DNA of 46,774 nt. It comes from Bacteroidales bacterium. Its GTDB lineage: Bacteria > Bacteroidota > Bacteroidia > Bacteroidales > F082. How positions within the stretch are numbered: position 1 is the first letter of the stretch; each line of letters opens with the position of its first letter. The position numbers and the translations under genes are program-made. This document shows, one piece after another, positions 15,310 through 40,993 of the stretch. The DNA is taken from positions 1-46,774 of the forward strand of contig JAFSJF010000030.1 of the NCBI GenBank assembly GCA_017439405.1. Reading direction: 5' to 3'. The notes beneath the pieces are model-generated. The model did not search any database and was not told the DNA's origin. It worked only from the letters and a program-made list of their open reading frames with translations.

Positions 15310-17769
15310 ATGAAAAGATACCTCCTTATTATCATGTCGGCACTGTTCATCTTCATGAGCAGCGACCTTTACGCACAGAGAAGAAACCCTGCCAAGAACG
15401 CCGACTTGGCCTTCGGGCGCAAGCAATACACCGAGGCCGCCGACCGCTACAAGAAAGCCTACCGCAGGGTGCGACGAAACAAGAAAGACGAACGCAACCG
15501 AATAAGCTTCCAAATGGGTGAATGCTACCGACTTATCGGCCTCACCAAACGCGCCGAGCCATACTACAAACGCCTATTGAAAACGGACTATCCCAACACA
15601 CATCCCGAGATCTATCTATACTTGGCCGAGACCTACAAGATGAATGAGAAATACAATGATGCCATCGAAATGTACGAAAAATATGCCGAAACGGTTCCCG
15701 ATGACCCACGAGGTCCACTCGGTGCAGAAACCACGGCACTAATCGCCGATTGGATTGAAAACCCTTCAAGATACCAACTTACAGAACTGAAAAAGGTGAA
15801 CTCAACCAAAGACTCCGACTTCGGTGCCTGCTGGATCAACAACAACTTCAATGAGATCATCTTCACCTCCACCCGCGACGCCGCCACGGGCAAGGAAAAA
15901 GACGGCATCACCGGGCAGGAGTTTGCCGACTTCTTCACCTCGAAGCAAGACCGCAAGGGCGAATGGAGTACGCCCGTGCTTGCCGACGAGAACGAGAACG
16001 TCAATACCGAGGCCAGCGAAGGCACGCCCTTCATGAACGCAAAATACACCAAGATGTACTTCACCCGATGCCAAAACGGAGCCCACCGCAAGAACGGATG
16101 CCAAATCATGGTGGCCGGCAAGAGTGGCGGCGCCTTCTCCGAGGCTCGACCTGTCGAAATTGCTGGAGTTGACACGCTTGACATCGTAGGACACCCCACC
16201 CTTTCGAGCGACGAGCTCATCATATATTTCGCCGCCGAACGCAAAGGCGGATTTGGTGGGAACGACATTTGGGTGGCCATGCGCGACAACGCCACTGAGG
16301 CTTTCAAACGTCCGTTCAACCTCGGGGAGAGAATCAACACGGCAGGCAATGAGGTCTTTCCGTTCCTGCGTTATGATACGATGCTCTACTTCGCCTCCGA
16401 TGGTCACGGCGGCATGGGCGGCCTCGACATCTTTGTCAGCACAATGGACACCGCCGGCAACTGGGGCGAGCCACGAAACCTGAAATACCCCATCAACTCC
16501 GTCGGCGACGACTTTGCCATCATGTTCCACCCAACGCAGGAATGCGGTTTCATCTCGTCGAGCCGAGGCAACACGCGCGGCATAGACAACATCTACTACT
16601 TCGAGGAACCGACCATACACTTCACCCTTTCTGGCACCGTCAAGGATGCCAAGACCAAGCAGTTCGTGAGCAACGCCAACGTCCGCATGGTGGGTAGCGA
16701 CGGCTCAAGCCTCTCGACCCGCACCAACGACAAGGGGTACTTCAACTTCAGCGAGAGCCAGATGAACAAGAACACGACCTACGACATCACCATCGACAAG
16801 GACAACTACTTCACGCTCAGCGCACAAGAGACAACTATCGGCTTGGAGTTCAGCAAGGACTTCGAGAAGGAATTCGACCTCGATCCCATCCCGCAAGAGC
16901 CCATCATGCTGCCCGACATCCTTTACGACTTAGGCAAGTGGGACCTGAAGCCCCAGTTTGAAGACTCGCTGCAAGGCCTCATCGAGACCCTGCAAATCAA
17001 CCCGACCATCACCATTGAGTTGGCTTCGCACACCGATGCCCGCGACACCGACGAGCACAACGACATCCTGTCGCAAAAACGCGCCCAAAGCGTTGTCGAT
17101 TACTTGATTATCAGAGGCATCGACCCGCTACGCCTTACTGCAAAAGGCTATGGCGAAAGGGTGCCGCGCACCATCGTGAACGACATTACCGTAAAGGGCT
17201 ATACCTTCAAGGCCGGGACCAGACTGACCGAAGAATTCATCAACTCGCTGCCTGCCACCGAAATCAAGGAAGCTGCCCACCAGATGAACCGCCGCACCGA
17301 ATTCCGCATCCTGAGCAAAGACTTCGTGCCACGCACCGAAATCAAAGAAGGCGGCACCGTCAATATCGCCATCAACCCGCAGGAAGACCAAACCGAGATG
17401 TTCACGGTAACCAATAAAGGCTACTTCACCTTCTTCGGCATGGTTGATGGCTACAGCGAGCCTTTCACCTACAGCCAAAACGCCGACTTCTGCGTCAGCG
17501 AAAGCCGAGCTTTGCAGCTGCTGAAAGACGGTCGCCTCACCGCCGACGACTTCCAAGGCGATGTGGACAAGATCCTCACCACCGACGGCATCGCCAATGG
17601 TGCCATCATCGTCATCAAGGAAGTGAGAATCGCCGGACGCTCGCTCTACAATGTGGAGTGCAAAGTCGTCAGCCGCATGGTCGAGCAATGGGTCATCGGA
17701 CAGAAGAACATGAAGCAACTCGGCAACTTCGAGTTCGACACGAAAGAAAAGAAATTAAAGTTCAAATAA
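15310..17769 (+). CDS. OmpA-family protein: TPR + PD40 propeller + CRD + OmpA + degenerate retropepsin-like domain
   Basis: An 819-residue exported cell-envelope protein. The signal peptide ends near LYAQR (22). TPR-like helices span about 25-140. A PD40/WD40-type propeller spans about 160-430, with repeated blades such as NDIWVAMRD and LDIFVSTMD. A carboxypeptidase-regulatory-like domain follows (about 435-530), then a peptidoglycan-binding OmpA domain (about 535-665, with SHTDARDTDEHN, KRAQSVVDYL and NRRTEFRI). This order matches PorE, a T9SS envelope component, but similar OmpA/PD40 proteins are common. The last ~130 residues resemble a retropepsin-like aspartic protease fold in which the catalytic FDTGAS is replaced by Y721-S-Q-N-A-D726, so it should be inactive. 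The ATG at 15310 is chosen because the promoter box and secDF terminator lie upstream of it. Confidence 0.85.
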   Translation: MKRYLLIIMSALFIFMSSDLYAQRRNPAKNADLAFGRKQYTEAADRYKKAYRRVRRNKKDERNRISFQMGECYRLIGLTKRAEPYYKRLLKTDYPNTHPEIYLYLAETYKMNEKYNDAIEMYEKYAETVPDDPRGPLGAETTALIADWIENPSRYQLTELKKVNSTKDSDFGACWINNNFNEIIFTSTRDAATGKEKDGITGQEFADFFTSKQDRKGEWSTPVLADENENVNTEASEGTPFMNAKYTKMYFTRCQNGAHRKNGCQIMVAGKSGGAFSEARPVEIAGVDTLDIVGHPTLSSDELIIYFAAERKGGFGGNDIWVAMRDNATEAFKRPFNLGERINTAGNEVFPFLRYDTMLYFASDGHGGMGGLDIFVSTMDTAGNWGEPRNLKYPINSVGDDFAIMFHPTQECGFISSSRGNTRGIDNIYYFEEPTIHFTLSGTVKDAKTKQFVSNANVRMVGSDGSSLSTRTNDKGYFNFSESQMNKNTTYDITIDKDNYFTLSAQETTIGLEFSKDFEKEFDLDPIPQEPIMLPDILYDLGKWDLKPQFEDSLQGLIETLQINPTITIELASHTDARDTDEHNDILSQKRAQSVVDYLIIRGIDPLRLTAKGYGERVPRTIVNDITVKGYTFKAGTRLTEEFINSLPATEIKEAAHQMNRRTEFRILSKDFVPRTEIKEGGTVNIAINPQEDQTEMFTVTNKGYFTFFGMVDGYSEPFTYSQNADFCVSESRALQLLKDGRLTADDFQGDVDKILTTDGIANGAIIVIKEVRIAGRSLYNVECKVVSRMVEQWVIGQKNMKQLGNFEFDTKEKKLKFK

Positions 17770-17880: not shown

Positions 17881-19044
17881 ATGGACAACCAACGCTATAG
17901 CTTGCGCGGCGTCTCTGCCGAAAAAGAAGACATCCACAACGCCATCAAGAACCTTGACAAGGGCTTGTATCCCAATGCGTTCTGCAAAATCATCCCCGAC
18001 ATACTCGGGGGCGACCCGCTCTATTGCAACATCATGCACGCCGACGGCGCAGGAACCAAATCGTCGCTCGCCTACCTCTATTGGAAAGAGACTGGCGACA
18101 TGAGCGTGTGGGAAGGCGTGGCGCAAGACGCCGTAGTGATGAACACCGACGACCTCATCTGCGTGGGCGCGACCAACAACATGCTCCTTTCCTCCACCAT
18201 CGGGCGCAACAAGAGCCTGATTCCGGGCGAGGTGATTTCGGCTTTGATTAACGGCACGGAGCACTTCTTGGAGAAGCTGCGCAAGCTCGGCATCGGCATT
18301 TACCTCACTGGTGGCGAAACCGCCGACGTGGGCGACTTGGTACGCACCGTCATCGTCGACAGCACCGTGACGACACGCATCAGACGTGATGAAGTGATTG
18401 AGAACAACCTCCAACCCGGCGATGTCATCGTGGCCTTCGCCTCTTACGGACAAGCCACTTACGAGGACAACTACAACGGTGGCATGGGCAGCAACGGCCT
18501 CACCTCGGCCCGCCACGACATGCTGAACCATTATTTGGCAGAGAAATACGACGAGAGCTACGACCATAGCATCCCTGAAGATTTGGTTTATTCCGGTCCG
18601 CACAAACTCACTGACCCGACCGAAGTCCCAGGCGTTGATGTGGGCAAGCTCATCCTCTCGCCCACCCGCACCTACGCCCCGCTGATGATTCCGATACTGA
18701 AGGAGTTCCGCAAGCAAATCCACGGCATCATCCATTGCAGCGGCGGTGCCCAGACCAAGGTGTTGCACTTCGTTGACAAACTGCACATCGTGAAAGACAA
18801 CATGTTGGCTTTGCCGCCCTTGTTCAAGATGATCCAAGCCACCTCGGGCACCGACTGGCACGAGATGTACAAGGTCTTCAACATGGGCCATCGCCTCGAA
18901 ATCTACACCAACGAAAAGGCCGCCAACGAGATGATTGCCATCGCAAAAGAATTCAATATCGACAGCCAGATTATTGGCCATGTGGAGGCATCCGAGCAAA
19001 AGAGATTGACAATTAAGAGTGAGTTTGGAACGTTTGAGTATTAA
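17881..19044 (+). CDS. purM: Phosphoribosylformylglycinamidine cyclo-ligase (AIR synthase)
   Basis: A 387-residue cytosolic enzyme of purine synthesis that converts FGAM to AIR using ATP. The PurM/SelD-type fold is shown by HADGAGTKS (the ATP-binding DGVGTK equivalent), MNTDDLICVGA, YLTGGETADVGD and, in the C-terminal half, SPTRTYAP, HCSGGAQTKV and MGHRLEIY. It starts at an ATG eleven bases after a long inverted repeat. The final 115 bases (18930-19044) are duplicated in diverged form at 20414-20528, beyond an AT-rich gene, so this 3' end appears to be an insertion hotspot. Confidence 0.94.
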   Translation: MDNQRYSLRGVSAEKEDIHNAIKNLDKGLYPNAFCKIIPDILGGDPLYCNIMHADGAGTKSSLAYLYWKETGDMSVWEGVAQDAVVMNTDDLICVGATNNMLLSSTIGRNKSLIPGEVISALINGTEHFLEKLRKLGIGIYLTGGETADVGDLVRTVIVDSTVTTRIRRDEVIENNLQPGDVIVAFASYGQATYEDNYNGGMGSNGLTSARHDMLNHYLAEKYDESYDHSIPEDLVYSGPHKLTDPTEVPGVDVGKLILSPTRTYAPLMIPILKEFRKQIHGIIHCSGGAQTKVLHFVDKLHIVKDNMLALPPLFKMIQATSGTDWHEMYKVFNMGHRLEIYTNEKAANEMIAIAKEFNIDSQIIGHVEASEQKRLTIKSEFGTFEY

Positions 19045-19066
19045 AACCATCAAAATTATAACCATC

Positions 19067-20413
19067 ATGAAAAAAATTCTTATTTTATCATTAGTTTTAG
19101 TTTGCCTGTTTCATGGCATTTCAGACGCACAAACTACAGACGGACAAACGTTCATTAACGCTTTCTTTCCCGAAAGTTCTTACTATGAAGGTCACCATTG
19201 CAACTCAAATTATCTATTGGACACGCTATATTGGAGTGAATGGTATAACGGTTCTGGTGGATACCATTATCTTCTCAATTACAAATACATCTTCACTTAT
19301 CTTCCTGATGGTAATGTCTATCAGATAATGCAATATGCATATATTCAGGACTACAATCAATGGCGGCAATCATATCGATATTCATTTGACTATGATGAGG
19401 ATGGCCGACTGACAAGTTATAGAAGTGAGGTACAAAAACCTAATGGGCAATGGCAGTATTATACCATCAAAGAATACACATACGACAATCAGGACAGGGT
19501 GTCTGTAATACTCCAAACGAATTGGGCAGGAGAAGGTTATGAGGATAGCCATAAAGAGTTTCAATATGAATATGATGAAGATGGCCACTTGTTGAGAGAA
19601 GCTATCTATTGGCCCGACCAAGGTCGTTATTATTCCCGCTTTCTATACGAATATGAAAATGACAATTTGACCTCCGAATACTATCAAAGATGGCTTCCTT
19701 CATCAGGATGGACTGACATTGATTGGTACCAATTTAGTTATGTAAACGGCAAGATATCAGACATGATTCATCAGATCTGGAATTCTTCAGAACAAAATTG
19801 GTACAATTATGAAAAACAAACATACGAATACCATCCTGAAGAAGAAAGAGCATACATTATTTCCCAGTCATGGGACAACGAATGGATAAACAGATACCGT
19901 GCGACCAATTTTATTTCAAACGGTCGCCTTGTAATAGATAGTACACAAAAATGGCAAAACGAGGAATGGGTTGACTTTACAGCTTGCGAATATTCATTTG
20001 ACGGTTCGGGGAATTTCACAGAAGCAAAATGGAAAGATTATGTTGACGGTGAATGGGTTGATAGTGACTACAATACAAAAACCATTGTCAGTTATAATGA
20101 TGGAGTGTCTATCCTTTGCGACTATATCCAATCATTTCGAGCAAGATACATAAGCACCAACAGCACATCAGAATTATACACTACCAACCAGACTACCATT
20201 TTTCCTAATCCAGGAACGAACCAGTTTACTATTCAAGCCGACACTCCTTTTACGCATGTCATAGTTTATGACATGACGGGCCTTCAAATATTCAGTCAAT
20301 CCGTATCTGAAACTGCAATTCGCATCAACACCGAAAGTTGGCCATCTGGAATCTATTTCTGGAAAGCATACAATTCAAATTCTGCTCAATGCGGGAAATG
20401 GGTAAAAAACTAA
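19067..20413 (+). CDS. Secreted protein with T9SS C-terminal sorting domain, YD-repeat-like
   Basis: A 448-residue secreted protein of unknown function. The signal peptide ends near SDAQT (about 21). The body is a series of loosely repeated aromatic strands with Y-x-Y-D-x-D-G-x-L motifs (for example YEYDEDGHL), reminiscent of RHS/YD-type repeats. The last ~75 residues are a type A T9SS sorting domain (FPNPGTNQFTI, YDMTGL, GIYFWKAY). The ATG at 19067 is chosen because it begins a clean signal peptide. Base composition is visibly AT-richer than in purM and the genes before it. Together with the purM-tail copy immediately after its stop, this suggests recent acquisition. Confidence 0.82.
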   Translation: MKKILILSLVLVCLFHGISDAQTTDGQTFINAFFPESSYYEGHHCNSNYLLDTLYWSEWYNGSGGYHYLLNYKYIFTYLPDGNVYQIMQYAYIQDYNQWRQSYRYSFDYDEDGRLTSYRSEVQKPNGQWQYYTIKEYTYDNQDRVSVILQTNWAGEGYEDSHKEFQYEYDEDGHLLREAIYWPDQGRYYSRFLYEYENDNLTSEYYQRWLPSSGWTDIDWYQFSYVNGKISDMIHQIWNSSEQNWYNYEKQTYEYHPEEERAYIISQSWDNEWINRYRATNFISNGRLVIDSTQKWQNEEWVDFTACEYSFDGSGNFTEAKWKDYVDGEWVDSDYNTKTIVSYNDGVSILCDYIQSFRARYISTNSTSELYTTNQTTIFPNPGTNQFTIQADTPFTHVIVYDMTGLQIFSQSVSETAIRINTESWPSGIYFWKAYNSNSAQCGKWVKN

Positions 20414-20528
20414 GATGATTGCCATCGCCAAGGAGTTCAATATTGATAGCCAGATTATTGGTCATGTGGAGGCTTCGGAGAAGAAGCAGTTAACGATAAG
20501 AAGTGAGTTTGGAATGTTTGAGTATTAA
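20414..20528 (+). pseudogene. Duplicated, diverged 3' end of purM
   Basis: These 115 bases align without gaps to the last 115 bases of purM (18930-19044). I count 19 differences, about 83% identity, most at third codon positions. The reading frame encodes the PurM C-terminus (MIAIAKEFNIDSQ to FEY) with its stop. It begins directly after the TAA of the T9SS gene and is followed by a leader resembling the one after the real purM. It is a remnant or footprint, not a functional gene. Confidence 0.9.
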
Positions 20529-20551
20529 ACAACCTACAAATCATAAACATC

Positions 20552-20962
20552 ATGAACAAATCAAAGTTTTTAGTCTTAATGGGCTTTTTGCTCTGTTTAG
20601 GTTTTGCAGGTTGCAACAAAAACGGCGAAAAAGTCACCATCAAAACCAACCAGCCCGAAGAAGTACAGGCGCATTACGCAAAGATTACCGGCACCATCAA
20701 ATCGCTGGACAAAAACATTAATGAACTTTGGGCTTACGGCTATTGTTTAGGTGAAGAGCCTAATCCCGACATGTCACACATGGTCGCTTGCGTTTATAAA
20801 ACGAACTATGACCATCCTGATGTATCACTTCCGAGACCCTTTGAGTACATGCTTGTTGGTCTGGAGCAAGAAACTGAATACCATTTTAGGGCTTTCGCCT
20901 TTCTCGATCAAAATTCGGTCGTCTTTGGCAAGGACATTAGTTTTACAACCCCAGCCGAATAA
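20552..20962 (+). CDS. Small lipoprotein with fibronectin type III-like fold
   Basis: A 136-residue probable lipoprotein with lipobox GFAGC (C21). The mature part reads like a single FN3-type beta sandwich: strands around HYAKITGTIKS and YGYCLGE, then the characteristic LEQETEYHFRAFAF near the end. It starts 23 bases after the purM-tail copy and has a leader similar to that of the 19067 gene. Its function is unknown. Confidence 0.7.
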   Translation: MNKSKFLVLMGFLLCLGFAGCNKNGEKVTIKTNQPEEVQAHYAKITGTIKSLDKNINELWAYGYCLGEEPNPDMSHMVACVYKTNYDHPDVSLPRPFEYMLVGLEQETEYHFRAFAFLDQNSVVFGKDISFTTPAE

Positions 20963-21018: not shown

Positions 21019-21642
21019 CTACAAAACCAGAACTATTGCATCTAAAGTTCTGGCTTCTGTTTTATAGCCCAACTTCTCCTTAAGTTTCTGTTTCCGCTTG
21101 AAAATGGCGCTTTCGGAAACGCAATAGATTTCGGCCAATTCAAAGGTCGTCAATCCGGATTTCACCAAACAACAGAACTGGAAATCCTTCTCTGGCATTT
21201 CCTTTTCGTGAAGCTTGTCGGAAAATGATGTGAAAGTGTTTGCAACAACCTCGCACAATGCATTGATTTCCTGCTCTTTCACTGCTTCAAGCGAGGTTTT
21301 CCGACTCACCGAGAAATAACCTTTCCGAACAAATGCCTTATATGCATCCGACTGTCGGAGCAACTCATTCCGCAAAGCATTCTCTTGGCTTTCGCTTGCC
21401 GTAATGGTTTGGTTTTTAGCTGATTTCTTACGAAGCCAAAACCAAAATGCAACAGCCAATACGACTATCAACAAGCCGAAAAACATGCTTTTCCATGCCA
21501 TAGTTGATTGAGAATTGGTCTCCCTCTTTTCAAGTGTCAAGCGATAAGCTGTTGCACCATTACTGCTGTCTGTCGAAACCGAAAAGCTTTCAATAGGGCT
21601 CTCCAAATGATAAATCATCTGTTTTGGTATGGTATCAAGCAT
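21019..21642 (-). CDS. Membrane-anchored HTH (LuxR-type) regulator
   Basis: A 207-residue protein. About 50 residues precede a single transmembrane helix (about 52-70), followed by RKK, a helical linker and a C-terminal helix-turn-helix (about 160-195, with LTTFELAEIYCVSESAIFKR). Bacteroidota have many regulators of this layout, usually with a large periplasmic TPR sensor. Here the sensor part is very short, so it may be a truncated member. A good Shine-Dalgarno (AAGGAGG) precedes the ATG and a TATTTTTG box lies just upstream. It is divergent from the thioredoxin-like lipoprotein gene, which it may regulate (inference). Confidence 0.7.
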   Translation of the reverse strand: MLDTIPKQMIYHLESPIESFSVSTDSSNGATAYRLTLEKRETNSQSTMAWKSMFFGLLIVVLAVAFWFWLRKKSAKNQTITASESQENALRNELLRQSDAYKAFVRKGYFSVSRKTSLEAVKEQEINALCEVVANTFTSFSDKLHEKEMPEKDFQFCCLVKSGLTTFELAEIYCVSESAIFKRKQKLKEKLGYKTEARTLDAIVLVL

Positions 21643-21882: not shown

Positions 21883-23316
21883 ATGCAAAACATCAGAAAT
21901 GGCCTATTGGCACTTTTGCTCGTCACCACGACGATTTCATGCACGGCACAGAACGAAGAAATCTTTGTCACTGCTAACACCAACCTTTGTCCCAACTGCT
22001 ACAACCAGTACCGAATGCTCGACAGCATCAGCGAGAGCATCCCGCTCCACTTGGTGTTCCAACAAAGCAGTGCCAAAGAAGCGCAGAAGTTCACCGACAA
22101 GTTCCTCCACATCACGCGCGACTTCGACCTCGTTTGCGACGACTCGCTGTTTCAAGCCTACTCGCACAACACGTTTCCATGGCTTCATTACTACCGAAAC
22201 GACACCTTGCTTTTCGATGCCAACCTTGGCCAGTTTGAAAAATGGATACCTTTTATTAATAGGTTATCGAAACGGCATAGCCTCGGACAAAGTCTCGCCC
22301 AATTGCCCGATGATATGGTTTTATCTGAAGACTGTAGATGTATCTCACTGAAAAACAACTACCTTTTCATGGATTTCACTTATAATGAGCTTCATCTTCT
22401 CGATTCGGAATTCAACTTTATGAAGACCCAAGATTTTTCGGAAACTGACTTCCCAACACTGTATCAAGGCATTTTCGGCGACGAAAAGACTTGGCAGAAC
22501 GTAAGCCGTTATGCCTCGGAAATCGCGCCCTACATTCCCGACTTCGGGAAAGTCAAGATCGACAATGGCTGCGTCTTCCACGACACGCTTTTCCTGCTTG
22601 TCAACCTCAACCACATCGAGACCTATTTCAATGAAAAAAAGCAAGACTCGGCGGTCAGGGTTCTCAACGAAAGTGCCATCATCGGTTTGGACGACCAACT
22701 TAACATCCAGAGAACCTATCCTTTACGATTTCGCGACTCATTACGTTTCGATGGGTTCATAGTCAATGCATACGCACATTGTGTGTTTCAAATCAACGAA
22801 TGGGACGACATCGTCTTGGGCATTTCTCAAAAGGAAGAAAGCGAAAAACACATTCTATGCAAAATGGAGAAAACAAGCGGCGAAATCCGATTCAAGTCAC
22901 TGGTTGACAATGCTTTCATTCCCGATTTCAACGAAAAACACCAGCTTGGAACAAGTTTGTGCCTGATTAAAGTGGATAAGGAACACGCCTATTTCAACGC
23001 GGCACCCGTCATCGCCAACTACGAAAGCGGTCGTATCCTCAAACTGCCTTTCTCCAACGAAAACGCCCATTTCGACCTGAAACATGGTATTGCTGAAGCA
23101 GATTATATCCTTGCGGACGCTTTGCAAACGGAATCATCTGATTATCTGTTGTTGCATTACCTCCAGTCAAAGAGCAAATTGAGCCTCATTGACAACACTG
23201 GGGCCCGCATTTGGACACTTCACCTGCCAGACGATTTCAAGAAAGTGTATTTGGTTGATGAGGAAACGGTACTTTTCGTTGATGAGGAGAATTACCTGAT
23301 TGGCATATTAGAATAA
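21883..23316 (+). CDS. Lipoprotein with N-terminal thioredoxin-like CPNC motif
   Basis: A 477-residue probable lipoprotein (lipobox TTISC, C20). The segment VTANTNLCPNCYNQY carries a CxxC resembling a thioredoxin-like redox centre at the N-terminus of the mature protein. The remainder (about 150-477) is rich in short beta strands and may form a propeller, as in other Bacteroidota lipoproteins. I do not recognise the family. The ATG at 21883 gives a clean signal peptide; an in-frame upstream start would add 17 unlikely residues. It is divergent from the HTH gene. Confidence 0.65.
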   Translation: MQNIRNGLLALLLVTTTISCTAQNEEIFVTANTNLCPNCYNQYRMLDSISESIPLHLVFQQSSAKEAQKFTDKFLHITRDFDLVCDDSLFQAYSHNTFPWLHYYRNDTLLFDANLGQFEKWIPFINRLSKRHSLGQSLAQLPDDMVLSEDCRCISLKNNYLFMDFTYNELHLLDSEFNFMKTQDFSETDFPTLYQGIFGDEKTWQNVSRYASEIAPYIPDFGKVKIDNGCVFHDTLFLLVNLNHIETYFNEKKQDSAVRVLNESAIIGLDDQLNIQRTYPLRFRDSLRFDGFIVNAYAHCVFQINEWDDIVLGISQKEESEKHILCKMEKTSGEIRFKSLVDNAFIPDFNEKHQLGTSLCLIKVDKEHAYFNAAPVIANYESGRILKLPFSNENAHFDLKHGIAEADYILADALQTESSDYLLLHYLQSKSKLSLIDNTGARIWTLHLPDDFKKVYLVDEETVLFVDEENYLIGILE

Positions 23317-23780: not shown

Positions 23781-24227
23781 TCAATCCTTGAGCCTTTCCT
23801 TGAAAAACAACCGCATTTTATCTTTGGAAATGACGTGTCCAGTACCTTCTCCAACAGGCGTTGTTTTCCATGGCATTTCGTCATGTGTCATATTCATGAG
23901 GCCGATGGCAGAAAAAGCACCATACACCTTGCAAACTTCTTCAAAAAGAGCCTGTTCCTTTCTTTCATCAAAAGAAAAATCAATGGAACGGTCAGGCTCA
24001 ATGCCATTGCGGCCAAACTCCTTGTATTTCTCATACATTGATGGAACTACAGGACCATACATCCAAGCCTCAATATCGTCATTGAAAAGCGGGGTGTCAA
24101 AGTAAGCCAAATGAAACCCTTGTTGATAATACAGCATCTTCTGAAGCTTCATGTTCGTCATCAGCTCTCCGGAATCCGCAGCATTGATTAAAAGCTGGTT
24201 TGCAATCTGTTCAACTAAATATGCCAT
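23781..24227 (-). CDS. Panacea/SocA-like (DUF4065) antitoxin
   Basis: A 148-residue cytoplasmic protein with the features of the Panacea (SocA/GepA, DUF4065) domain: TNMKLQKMLYYQQGFHLAYF near the N-terminus, then EAWMYGPVVPSMYEKYKEFG. The domain is known as a versatile antitoxin paired with diverse toxins. It is the first gene of a two-gene operon whose second gene is the interrupted toxin. A TAGTTTTG box lies 20 bases upstream of the start. Confidence 0.85.
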   Translation of the reverse strand: MAYLVEQIANQLLINAADSGELMTNMKLQKMLYYQQGFHLAYFDTPLFNDDIEAWMYGPVVPSMYEKYKEFGRNGIEPDRSIDFSFDERKEQALFEEVCKVYGAFSAIGLMNMTHDEMPWKTTPVGEGTGHVISKDKMRLFFKERLKD

Positions 24228-24338: not shown

Positions 24339-25445
24339 GTGGACATCACCTCAAAACTCGAAACGATAAAGCACCGCTGGGAGGAAATGGGCGAACAGCT
24401 CGCCGACCCCGCCGTGGCTTCCGACATGAAGAAGTTCGTGAAGCTCAACAAGGACTACAAGGACTTGGAGCCTATCGTCATGGCCTTCAAGCAATACAAG
24501 ACCCTGAAAGCCAACGTGGAAGAAGCCAAGGAAATCCTCGCCACCGAAAAGGACGAAGAAATGCGCAAGATGGCCCAAGAGGAATGGGACACCGCCCAAA
24601 CGCGCATCGAGCAGCTGGAACAGGACATCCGCGTGATGATGATTCCGAAAGACCCTCAGGACTCGAAGAACGCCATCATGGAAATCCGTGCCGGCACGGG
24701 CGGCGACGAGGCCTGCCTCTTTGCCGGCGACCTCTTCCGTATGTACACCAAATTCTGCGAAAACAAGGGCTGGAAGGTGGAAGTGACCTCCGTCAGCGAG
24801 GGTGCCAGCGGCGGCTACAAGGAAATCGACTTCACCGTGACGGGCAACGGCTGCTACGGTATCCTCAAGTTTGAGTCGGGTGTGCACCGCGTGCAACGTG
24901 TGCCCAAGACCGAGACGCAAGGCCGCATTCACACCTCCGCCGCATCGGTGGCCGTGCTGCCCGAAGCCGAAGAGTTCGATGTGGAAATCAACGAGGGCGA
25001 AATCAAATGGGACACCTTCCGCTCCAGTGGCGCTGGCGGACAGAACGTGAACAAAGTGGAGTCGGGCGTGCGCCTGCGTTATATGTGGAAGAACCCCAAC
25101 ACGGGCGAGATGCAGGAAATCCTTATCGAGTGCACCGAGACCCGCGACCAACCCAAGAACCGCGAACGCGCCTTGGCCCGACTGCGCACGCGCATCTACG
25201 ACATGGAATACCAGAAATACATCAGCGACATCTCCGCCAAGCGCAAGACCATGGTCTCGACCGGCGACCGCTCGGCGAAGATCCGCACCTACAACTATCC
25301 CCAAGGCCGTGTCACCGACCACCGCGTTGAGGGTTTGACCGTCTACAATCTCGCCGCCGTCATGGATGGCGACTTGGAGGAAATCATCAACCGCCTGCAA
25401 ATGGCGGAAAACGCTGAGAGACTGAAAGAAAATATTGAATCATAA
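24339..25445 (+). CDS. prfA: Peptide chain release factor 1
   Basis: A 368-residue release factor that reads UAA and UAG and triggers peptide hydrolysis. The catalytic GGQ is in GAGGQNVNK. The codon-recognition segment is VPKTETQGRIHTS, with P-K-T at the RF1 PxT position. The N-terminal coiled-coil domain and ordinary RF1 length are present. The frame is open upstream, but the promoter box at 24313 excludes earlier starts, so the GTG at 24339 (MDITSKLETIKHRWEE) is chosen. That UAG is a stop here is relevant to the interrupted toxin gene next door. Confidence 0.95.
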   Translation: MDITSKLETIKHRWEEMGEQLADPAVASDMKKFVKLNKDYKDLEPIVMAFKQYKTLKANVEEAKEILATEKDEEMRKMAQEEWDTAQTRIEQLEQDIRVMMIPKDPQDSKNAIMEIRAGTGGDEACLFAGDLFRMYTKFCENKGWKVEVTSVSEGASGGYKEIDFTVTGNGCYGILKFESGVHRVQRVPKTETQGRIHTSAASVAVLPEAEEFDVEINEGEIKWDTFRSSGAGGQNVNKVESGVRLRYMWKNPNTGEMQEILIECTETRDQPKNRERALARLRTRIYDMEYQKYISDISAKRKTMVSTGDRSAKIRTYNYPQGRVTDHRVEGLTVYNLAAVMDGDLEEIINRLQMAENAERLKENIES

Positions 25446-29919: not shown

Positions 29920-29987
29920 GCCAATGTTTTTTTCGGCAGGGGTTCACAGCACCTGCCTATCACGCTGCCGTCCCTTCGGGACTATGG
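29920..29987 (+). repeat. 68-bp direct repeat, left flank of the ATPase/RloB module
   Basis: Begins GCCAATGTTTTTTTCGG and ends CCCTTCGGGACTATGG. It matches 32116-32183 at 64 of 68 positions in the same orientation. A partial tandem copy of its first half (TTTCGGCAGGGGTTCACA) sits just before it at about 29895-29912. The rest of the 29751-30151 gap is AT-rich with a duplicated GGAAAGATAAC word. I see no gene in it. Confidence 0.88.
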
Positions 29988-32115: not shown

Positions 32116-32183
32116 GCCAATGTTTTTTTCGGTAGGGGTTTACACCACCTGCCTATCACGCTGCCGTCCCCTCGGGACTATGG
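32116..32183 (+). repeat. 68-bp direct repeat, right flank of the ATPase/RloB module
   Basis: Same orientation as the copy at 29920-29987 and 64/68 identical. It shares GCCAATGTTTTTTTCGG and CACCTGCCTATCACGCTGCC. The copies are 2196 bases apart and enclose only the two-gene module. Confidence 0.88.
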
Positions 32184-39320: not shown

Positions 39321-39363
39321 TTTTCTGTTTGTTTTTATCGGTTCTTTAGGTTGGAAAAGCATC

Positions 39364-39412
39364 GGATAACGGGCTAAAAGTATCAAAAAAAATCGGTTTT
39401 AGCCCGTTATCC
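39364..39412. repeat. Perfect 16-bp-arm palindrome, downstream flank of DUF234 ATPase
   Basis: GGATAACGGGCTAAAA (39364-39379) and TTTTAGCCCGTTATCC (39397-39412) pair exactly around GTATCAAAAAAAATCGG. A second copy in the same orientation lies at 40888-40940, upstream of the ATPase gene. Confidence 0.92.
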
Positions 39413-39418
39413 AAATGA

Positions 39419-40876: not shown

Positions 40877-40887
40877 AGGAAAAAAGT

Positions 40888-40940
40888 TCGAATAGCAGGC
40901 TAAAAGTATCAAAAAAATGAAGTTTTAGCCCGTTATCCGA
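40888..40940. repeat. Imperfect palindrome, upstream flank of DUF234 ATPase
   Basis: CGAATAGCAGGCTAAAA and TTTTAGCCCGTTATCCG pair with three mismatches around GTATCAAAAAAATGAAG. Same orientation and nearly the same loop as 39364-39412. Confidence 0.9.
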
Positions 40941-40993
40941 ACATGATATTTAATGTATTTTGATTATTATCAACAACTTATGCAAATCACAAA

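Follow-up and report, generated by a model that had tools for sequence, protein, structure and literature searches.

The junction between purM and prfA in a genus of uncultured Bacteroidales is best explained as a hotspot where small genes enter and leave as cargo and pass from one species to another through recombination in the flanking genes. In the genome that provided the locus studied here, a gene encoding a secreted protein with a T9SS sorting domain lies between the intact purM and a second, diverged copy of the purM 3' end, and comparison with a relative shows, at the level of sequence, that this gene moved recently. Its entry very probably involved one homologous and one non-homologous end and no dedicated integrase.

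The repeated purM end

The window, by which we mean the whole stretch of DNA analysed (46,774 nucleotides), is one whole contig of a draft genome (159 contigs, 5.2% estimated contamination) designated G000, and the other genomes of the genus are cited by the same kind of code. Its complete purM (17881..19044, forward strand; an ORF of 387 aa matching TIGR00878 with E 7.3e-28, below the curated cut-off) ends in a stretch, 18930..19044, here called tail 1, which is found again by sequence comparison on the same strand at 20414..20528 as a second purM 3' end, here called tail 2. The two enclose a leader (19045..19066, forward, one substitution relative to genome G007) and cargo 1, the T9SS protein gene itself (19067..20413, forward; type A sorting domain, PF18962, E 6e-11, and TIGR04183, E 7e-10), hereafter T9.

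The repeat is real. A repeat search recovered 18929-19045 at 20413-20529 (117 nt, 84% identical, ungapped), and the two tails are identical at 96 of 115 nt, their 19 differences falling 2, 3 and 14 times on the first, second and third codon positions (114 in-frame nt), which agrees with the earlier note, where an ungapped repeat of 115 bases with 19 mostly third-position differences had been described. The best ungapped tail match in the interval is this 96/115, the maximum of 100 dinucleotide-block shuffles being 53, and no further tail copies were found in the G000 genome beyond chance pieces. Two other claims of that note were also confirmed, namely that the copy starts directly after the T9 stop, since TAA is followed at once by tail 2, and that similar leaders follow the two tails, both of which end in ATCATGAA. 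At this non-homologous junction (20413..20414, without strand) the T9 stop is joined to purM position -115 and 1 nt is shared (by eye). A divergence peak at third positions specific to the purM end was considered and not used: the last windows were the highest (0.43 and 0.39), yet another window reached 0.42.

Tail 2 forms an intact open frame of 37 codons from purM Met351 (20415-20528), the ATG of which lies one base past the T9 stop; G053 has TTG at the same position. This frame might couple translation to the following gene.

Downstream of tail 2 there are a lipoprotein-gene leader (20529..20551, forward), which is the same in G053, G060, G065 and G086, and cargo 2, a small lipoprotein-like gene (20552..20962, forward; label given by eye). 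These are followed by cargo 3, a LuxR-like protein (21019..21642, reverse; labelled by eye, with a weak BT3442-family match only), and its 477-aa partner (21883..23316, forward; no Pfam family), which accompanies relatives of the LuxR-like gene in G052, G059 and G083, and by cargo 4, an antitoxin-like gene with a SocA/Panacea domain (23781..24227, reverse; PF13274, E 1.7e-20). The right flank is prfA (24339..25445, forward; TIGR00019, E 5.8e-138; GTG start). Thus prfA is not the next gene: four more larger genes lie between it and T9, and its GTG start at 24339 is separated from the purM stop by 5294 nt. The absence of an integrase, remarked on earlier, held for the five larger cargo genes of this interval, among which neither a site-specific recombinase nor intI was found.

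Upstream of purM, and directly adjacent to it, there is a porE-like gene (15310..17769, forward; T9SS PorE/OmpA family; NF052230, E 4.9e-172, 573.6 bits, below the curated cut-off of 600), so that secretion machinery and T9SS cargo flank the same gene, probably by coincidence. Other repeats in the window pair 39355-39415 with 40881-40941 and 29920-29987 with 32116-32183, and there is an inverted repeat at 2832-2919.

Cargo at the purM-prfA junction in related genomes

A purM match was present in 92 of the 99 genomes of the genus, G000 included, and the closest named records to purM are mostly metagenome genomes, many of them from ruminants. We compared 58 stretches around purM and defined a clade by at least 90% purM identity, with 51 full-length purM places, in 47 of which (from 46 genomes, including G000) both flanks were resolved. 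G027 is counted twice among these 47 loci, G061 was read from a contig starting inside the purM tail, and the loci of G055, G060, G070, G075 and G082 were placed by hand; the clade loci of G014, G046, G048 and G097 and the fragmentary purM genes of G003, G058, G068 and G087 were left out. The prfA genes of G055, G060 and G070 align as two pieces with a gap or overlap, as after an internal insertion, deletion or frameshift. In G061 and G097 contigs end within the purM tail and overlap exactly over 99 and 55 nt; this could reflect strain variants or a repeated tail.

Fifteen of the 47 resolved loci are empty, that is, the purM stop and the prfA start are at most 5 nt apart (3 nt in 13 loci, 5 nt in one and a 1-nt overlap in one), and the empty site that had been predicted in relatives thus exists. 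The other 32 hold 427 to 5294 nt of cargo, and it is in these that unrelated cargo sets occupy the same place between the same two core genes. Mean G+C is 39% for cargo, 54% for purM and 56% for prfA. In a more distant clade (purM 84-86%) prfA directly follows purM in all ten loci compared. In the control interval prfA-pyrF three of the 46 rows from the clade with at least 90% purM identity have a 1.7 kb insertion (G056, G065 and G089; ten distant-clade rows left out), which makes purM-prfA the more active site without making it unique, and a protein search reported no second prfA piece at the insertion in these three genomes.

Grouping the cargo ORFs from 40 aa upwards, small ones included, gives 23 clusters, in a listing that ends at the prfA-start remnants in G020, G052 and G083 and leaves out G075. 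A small lipoprotein-like gene accounts for 11 rows, another lipoprotein-like family for nine (eight genomes) and the T9SS protein for six, and there are also vapBC with a PIN toxin (PF01850), an AAA_14-DUF4143 ATPase, a YhcG/DUF1016 nuclease, an NYN protein, DUF559 and SocA/Panacea proteins, the lipoprotein and vapB labels being given by eye. In PADLOC the matches of the ATPase were all to candidate class PDC-S01, and those of the nuclease to PDC-S02 plus one PD_DExK model (among the 25 of 33 matches listed). Strong matches to the cargo 2 lipoprotein occur in 12 of 99 genomes, in all 12 inside the purM-prfA interval, in addition to two weak matches (E about 1e-9) outside it. A Pfam scan of 15 larger cargo proteins revealed no recombinase, integrase or transposase, and no fixed repeat marking cassette ends was seen.

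The T9 genes of G000 and G007 are identical at 1336 of 1347 nt (99.2%), with two synonymous and nine nonsynonymous codon changes, whereas purM DNA of the same two genomes is 94.0% identical over 949 nt (91.3% over the first 1046 nt), with 48 synonymous and five nonsynonymous changes in codons 41-349. T9 therefore moved recently. Full-length relatives of the T9 protein (E 4.5e-62 or better) were found in six of 99 genomes, all at the purM-prfA site, among the matches listed; 17 candidates per genome were scored in this search, the sorting domain being common. No relatives of the protein were found on plasmids or viral contigs. The lipoprotein gene shows no difference between G084 and G086 (0/411), although the purM bodies of these two genomes have 96 differences over 949 positions. 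In eight near-identical cassette pairs (six of them among four lipoprotein-carrier genomes and thus not independent; repeats with the second locus of G027 left out) the first purM mismatch lies 13-42 nt from the stop, and since variation is low in the final 12 nt of purM, a distance of 13 nt could stand for a cassette without any shared purM. At the other flank the first difference falls no more than 26 nt from the prfA start in seven of these eight pairs and at position 161 in the remaining one.

Cargo was predicted to differ between purM tails, and besides differing between genomes it does so in G053, where purM is followed by a gene for a 228-aa protein with a signal-like start, vapB, a shortened vapC, 113 nt of a purM end and a lipoprotein gene, so that the order purM, cargo, purM tail recurs with another cargo. 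The purM cut positions in G000 and G053 are about 3 nt apart, the joined partners differ and each joint has an overlap of about 1 nt (by eye; the G053 joint was compared with the intact vapC of G052 only), and this near-coincidence is the best hint of a preferred site. Mirror scars, each a 27-37 nt copy of the beginning of prfA, are situated between modules in at least five genomes, G020, G052 (two copies), G057, G061 and G083, and decayed copies were recognised by eye in G027, G059 and G074. The copies of purM align over 116 nt in G000 and 113 nt in G053, and no core common to these and the prfA copies was seen. At E 1e-10 no second purM piece was found in a set of 80 loci, which may or may not have included G000 and G053.

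At module borders in G020, G052, G053, G057, G059, G060 and G061, what we take to be a Bacteroidetes-type promoter box is directly preceded by an inverted repeat that measures about 18 nt by eye. With at most one mismatch, all eight matches to this hairpin-promoter repeat in ten genomes lie inside the purM-prfA interval, and it may be a vapBC operator. As a recombination site in G000 the repeat was rejected, given that the window contains no match and that a single match with three mismatches lies elsewhere in the genome.

Origin of the two tails and entry of T9

Against the G007 tail, tail 1 has five differences in the first 58 nt and 14 in the last 57 nt, and tail 2 has seven and one, respectively. 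The closeness of tail 2 and G007 over the last 57 nt is matched by only 2 of 1035 pairs of first tails, and each of the five pairs with at most two differences there shares a cargo family. More generally, same-cargo pairs are closer over the last 57 nt of purM (9.8 versus 13.2 differences; permutation p 0.0005), with no cargo association over the preceding 58 nt (p 0.35), so that purM end and cargo tend to move together; since the purM body is also associated with the cargo labels (p 0.0065), relatedness contributes. In this test the label was the cargo adjoining purM, and empty loci, G046, G047, G000, G053 and the carriers of unshared cargo (G055, G056, G057, G064 and G075) were left out.

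The end of tail 2 is thus of the type that stands beside a near-identical T9 in G007, yet it is positioned after T9, the order in G007 being tail and then T9. This is the order expected from a circle or a head-to-tail duplication of [tail - T9], and we favour an insertion of this kind. T9 would have come in through a single homologous crossover close to the 3' end of purM (in the last ~14 nt or the stop codon), and the other end would have been closed by the non-homologous join of the T9 stop to purM position -115; the incoming DNA, holding tail and T9 in permuted order, would leave resident purM with tail 1, T9, donor tail 2 and then the older cargo. The two junctions have the corresponding form, the left one lying inside the homologous purM end and the right one sharing 1 nt; the crossover itself and its position, the circular or tandem intermediate, RecA dependence and the uptake route are inferred. 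The seven differences in the first 58 nt indicate that the donor was not G007 itself, and the four other T9 carriers lack the tail 2 type (12-16 differences). The arrival of tail 2 with T9 is the probable reading of these alignments, and for its permuted form, by circle or head-to-tail duplication, the chances seem to us about even; no circle or tandem form of [tail - T9] was seen, which counts against it.

The strongest rival is a linear, homology-facilitated illegitimate recombination, a known process with a close parallel in the Vibrio T6SS array model (PMC5361080). Here a donor [purM end - T9] would have recombined in purM and its far end would have been joined to resident purM position -115, making tail 1 the donor end and tail 2 the displaced resident one. 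The scars on the prfA side do look like displaced resident prfA starts, the remnant in G083 having an ATG start directly after the right end of the first cassette and the working prfA a GTG start. In addition, G007 is the nearest genome not only for tail 2 but for the purM body (57/949 differences) and, among full-length matches, for prfA DNA (92.0%), which leaves room for a resident tail 2. A genome-wide sister relation to G007 was rejected, as the secDF DNA of G000 is only 85% identical to that of G007 (88% to G077) and 12 other genomes score as high or higher; with prfA nearest G007, a local relation remains. Against the linear scheme, the resident tail end would have to match the T9-side tail of G007 by chance, at a closeness reached by so few pairs of first tails, and tail 1, which would then be the companion of T9, is not akin to the G007 tail over the last 57 nt. 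The permuted reading, for its part, is weakened by tail 1 not being clearly of a resident, lipoprotein-associated type, since its last 57 nt have five differences to the empty locus of G071 and five to the carrier G086; both tails of G053 are near those of lipoprotein carriers and do not discriminate between the readings. We regard the linear scheme as a serious, if tentative, alternative.

A tree of the tails (112 columns, too few for firm support) places tail 2 with G007 and G015 (92/97) and, on a branch with support 88/0 and a bootstrap that has not settled, with G007. The best tree separates tail 1 from tail 2. AU tests rejected neither a clade of the two tails (p 0.09) nor a grouping of tail 1 with G007 (p 0.35). 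The expectation that the second tail would group with another species is thus borne out as to its nearest relative and its separation from tail 1, the AU tests falling short of a rejection. Of the further proposal, a cassette carrying its own purM end, the recent movement of T9 and the affinity of tail 2 to G007 stand, and the permuted and linear schemes divide over whether tail 2 arrived or was displaced.

A less probable reading is a dedicated, almost base-precise exchange of single-gene cassettes across species between the purM stop and the prfA start, with circles in which a short piece of purM or prfA serves as the targeting sequence; such an exchange would be marked by the near-identical breakpoints of G000 and G053 and by the tight boundaries of the exchanged tracts, and, if true, the ends of core genes would act as an attachment site without a cassette-encoded integrase. 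The same boundaries, tight on both sides of the cassette pairs, and the same pair of breakpoints could also point to site-specific integration by a recombinase encoded elsewhere, with the purM end and the prfA start as attachment sites. We consider this improbable, given that none of the 15 cargo proteins scanned is a recombinase, leaders and right ends differ between cargo families, repeat lengths differ at the two flanks and no shared terminal sequence was seen. For the same reasons (no recombinase among those 15 proteins, no fixed end repeat, scars of different lengths at both flanks) the likeness to target-gene restoration by an integrative element, which the earlier note had drawn, was not supported, and homology-anchored insertion in an exchange hotspot is the more likely mechanism.

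An assembly chimera of two strains, conceivable in a draft of many contigs with some estimated contamination, is very unlikely, since a chimeric join needs a shared word and the ~1 nt shared at the joint is too little for an assembler, and since G053 has an analogous structure. Least likely of all is a tandem duplication that arose in situ and whose second tail diverged afterwards, which would give a direct repeat without foreign DNA and is compatible with the AU value for one-clade tails, but leaves tails 17% diverged next to a T9 only 0.8% from that of G007, a tail 2 that matches G007 at nearly all of the last 57 nt, where tail 1 differs, and a best tree that parts the tails.

Relation to known systems

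Genomic islands that integrate in the 3' ends of genes restore them, so that an intact gene and a displaced 3' copy flank the cargo, as purM and its copy do here. The purM-prfA site differs from them in the absence of an integrase among the scanned cargo, the lack of a constant core and the mirror scars at the prfA 5' end. Integron cassette arrays, in which modular cargo genes stand in a row at one site, resemble the row of modular genes between purM and prfA; here, however, no integrase was found among the scanned cargo and no attC was recognised, the pattern sought being the hairpin-promoter block of the relatives, which has no close match in G000.

Our literature search found no paper that links purM and prfA with an insertion site in Bacteroides and related groups. 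Hotspots between core genes that lack mobile elements are known and have been explained by recombination in the flanking genes (Oliveira et al. 2017, PMC5635113). They share with purM-prfA the single core-gene interval, the rapid turnover of cargo, the empty and filled alleles among relatives and the lack of recognised mobility genes (here among the 15 larger cargo proteins scanned). The purM-prfA site is distinguished from the hotspots described there by having mostly one or few genes per locus, by exchanged tracts that, in the pairs compared, extend hardly at all into the flanking genes, and by duplicated fragments of both flanking genes, left as scars.

One-sided insertion has been described in three naturally competent species and in E. 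coli conjugation (PMC3240628, PMC2884548), and transformation can make tandem duplications in pneumococcus (PMC3784515). For T6SS clusters of Vibrio, with their displaced effector 3' ends and immunity arrays, homology-facilitated illegitimate recombination was proposed (PMC5361080). The likeness lies in homology anchoring one end, illegitimate joining at the opposite end and a remnant gene 3' end that precedes the older cargo. The differences are that at purM-prfA the anchor is a housekeeping gene, the cargoes are unrelated and scars occur at both flanks, and that the leftover tail end of G000 matches the T9-carrying G007.

The entry of genes into integrase-free hotspots has largely been inferred so far. 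The present locus has scars at both flanks and empty, single and multiple states among close relatives, which, together with one recent event whose orders can be compared, make one-sided insertion and possible circular intermediates testable. It also shows that single surface-protein genes move between species of gut Bacteroidales with hardly any flanking DNA. What is added here to the systems above is the occurrence of scars at both flanks, a recent movement between species and one case in which the donor-type and the inserted orders are permuted relative to each other.
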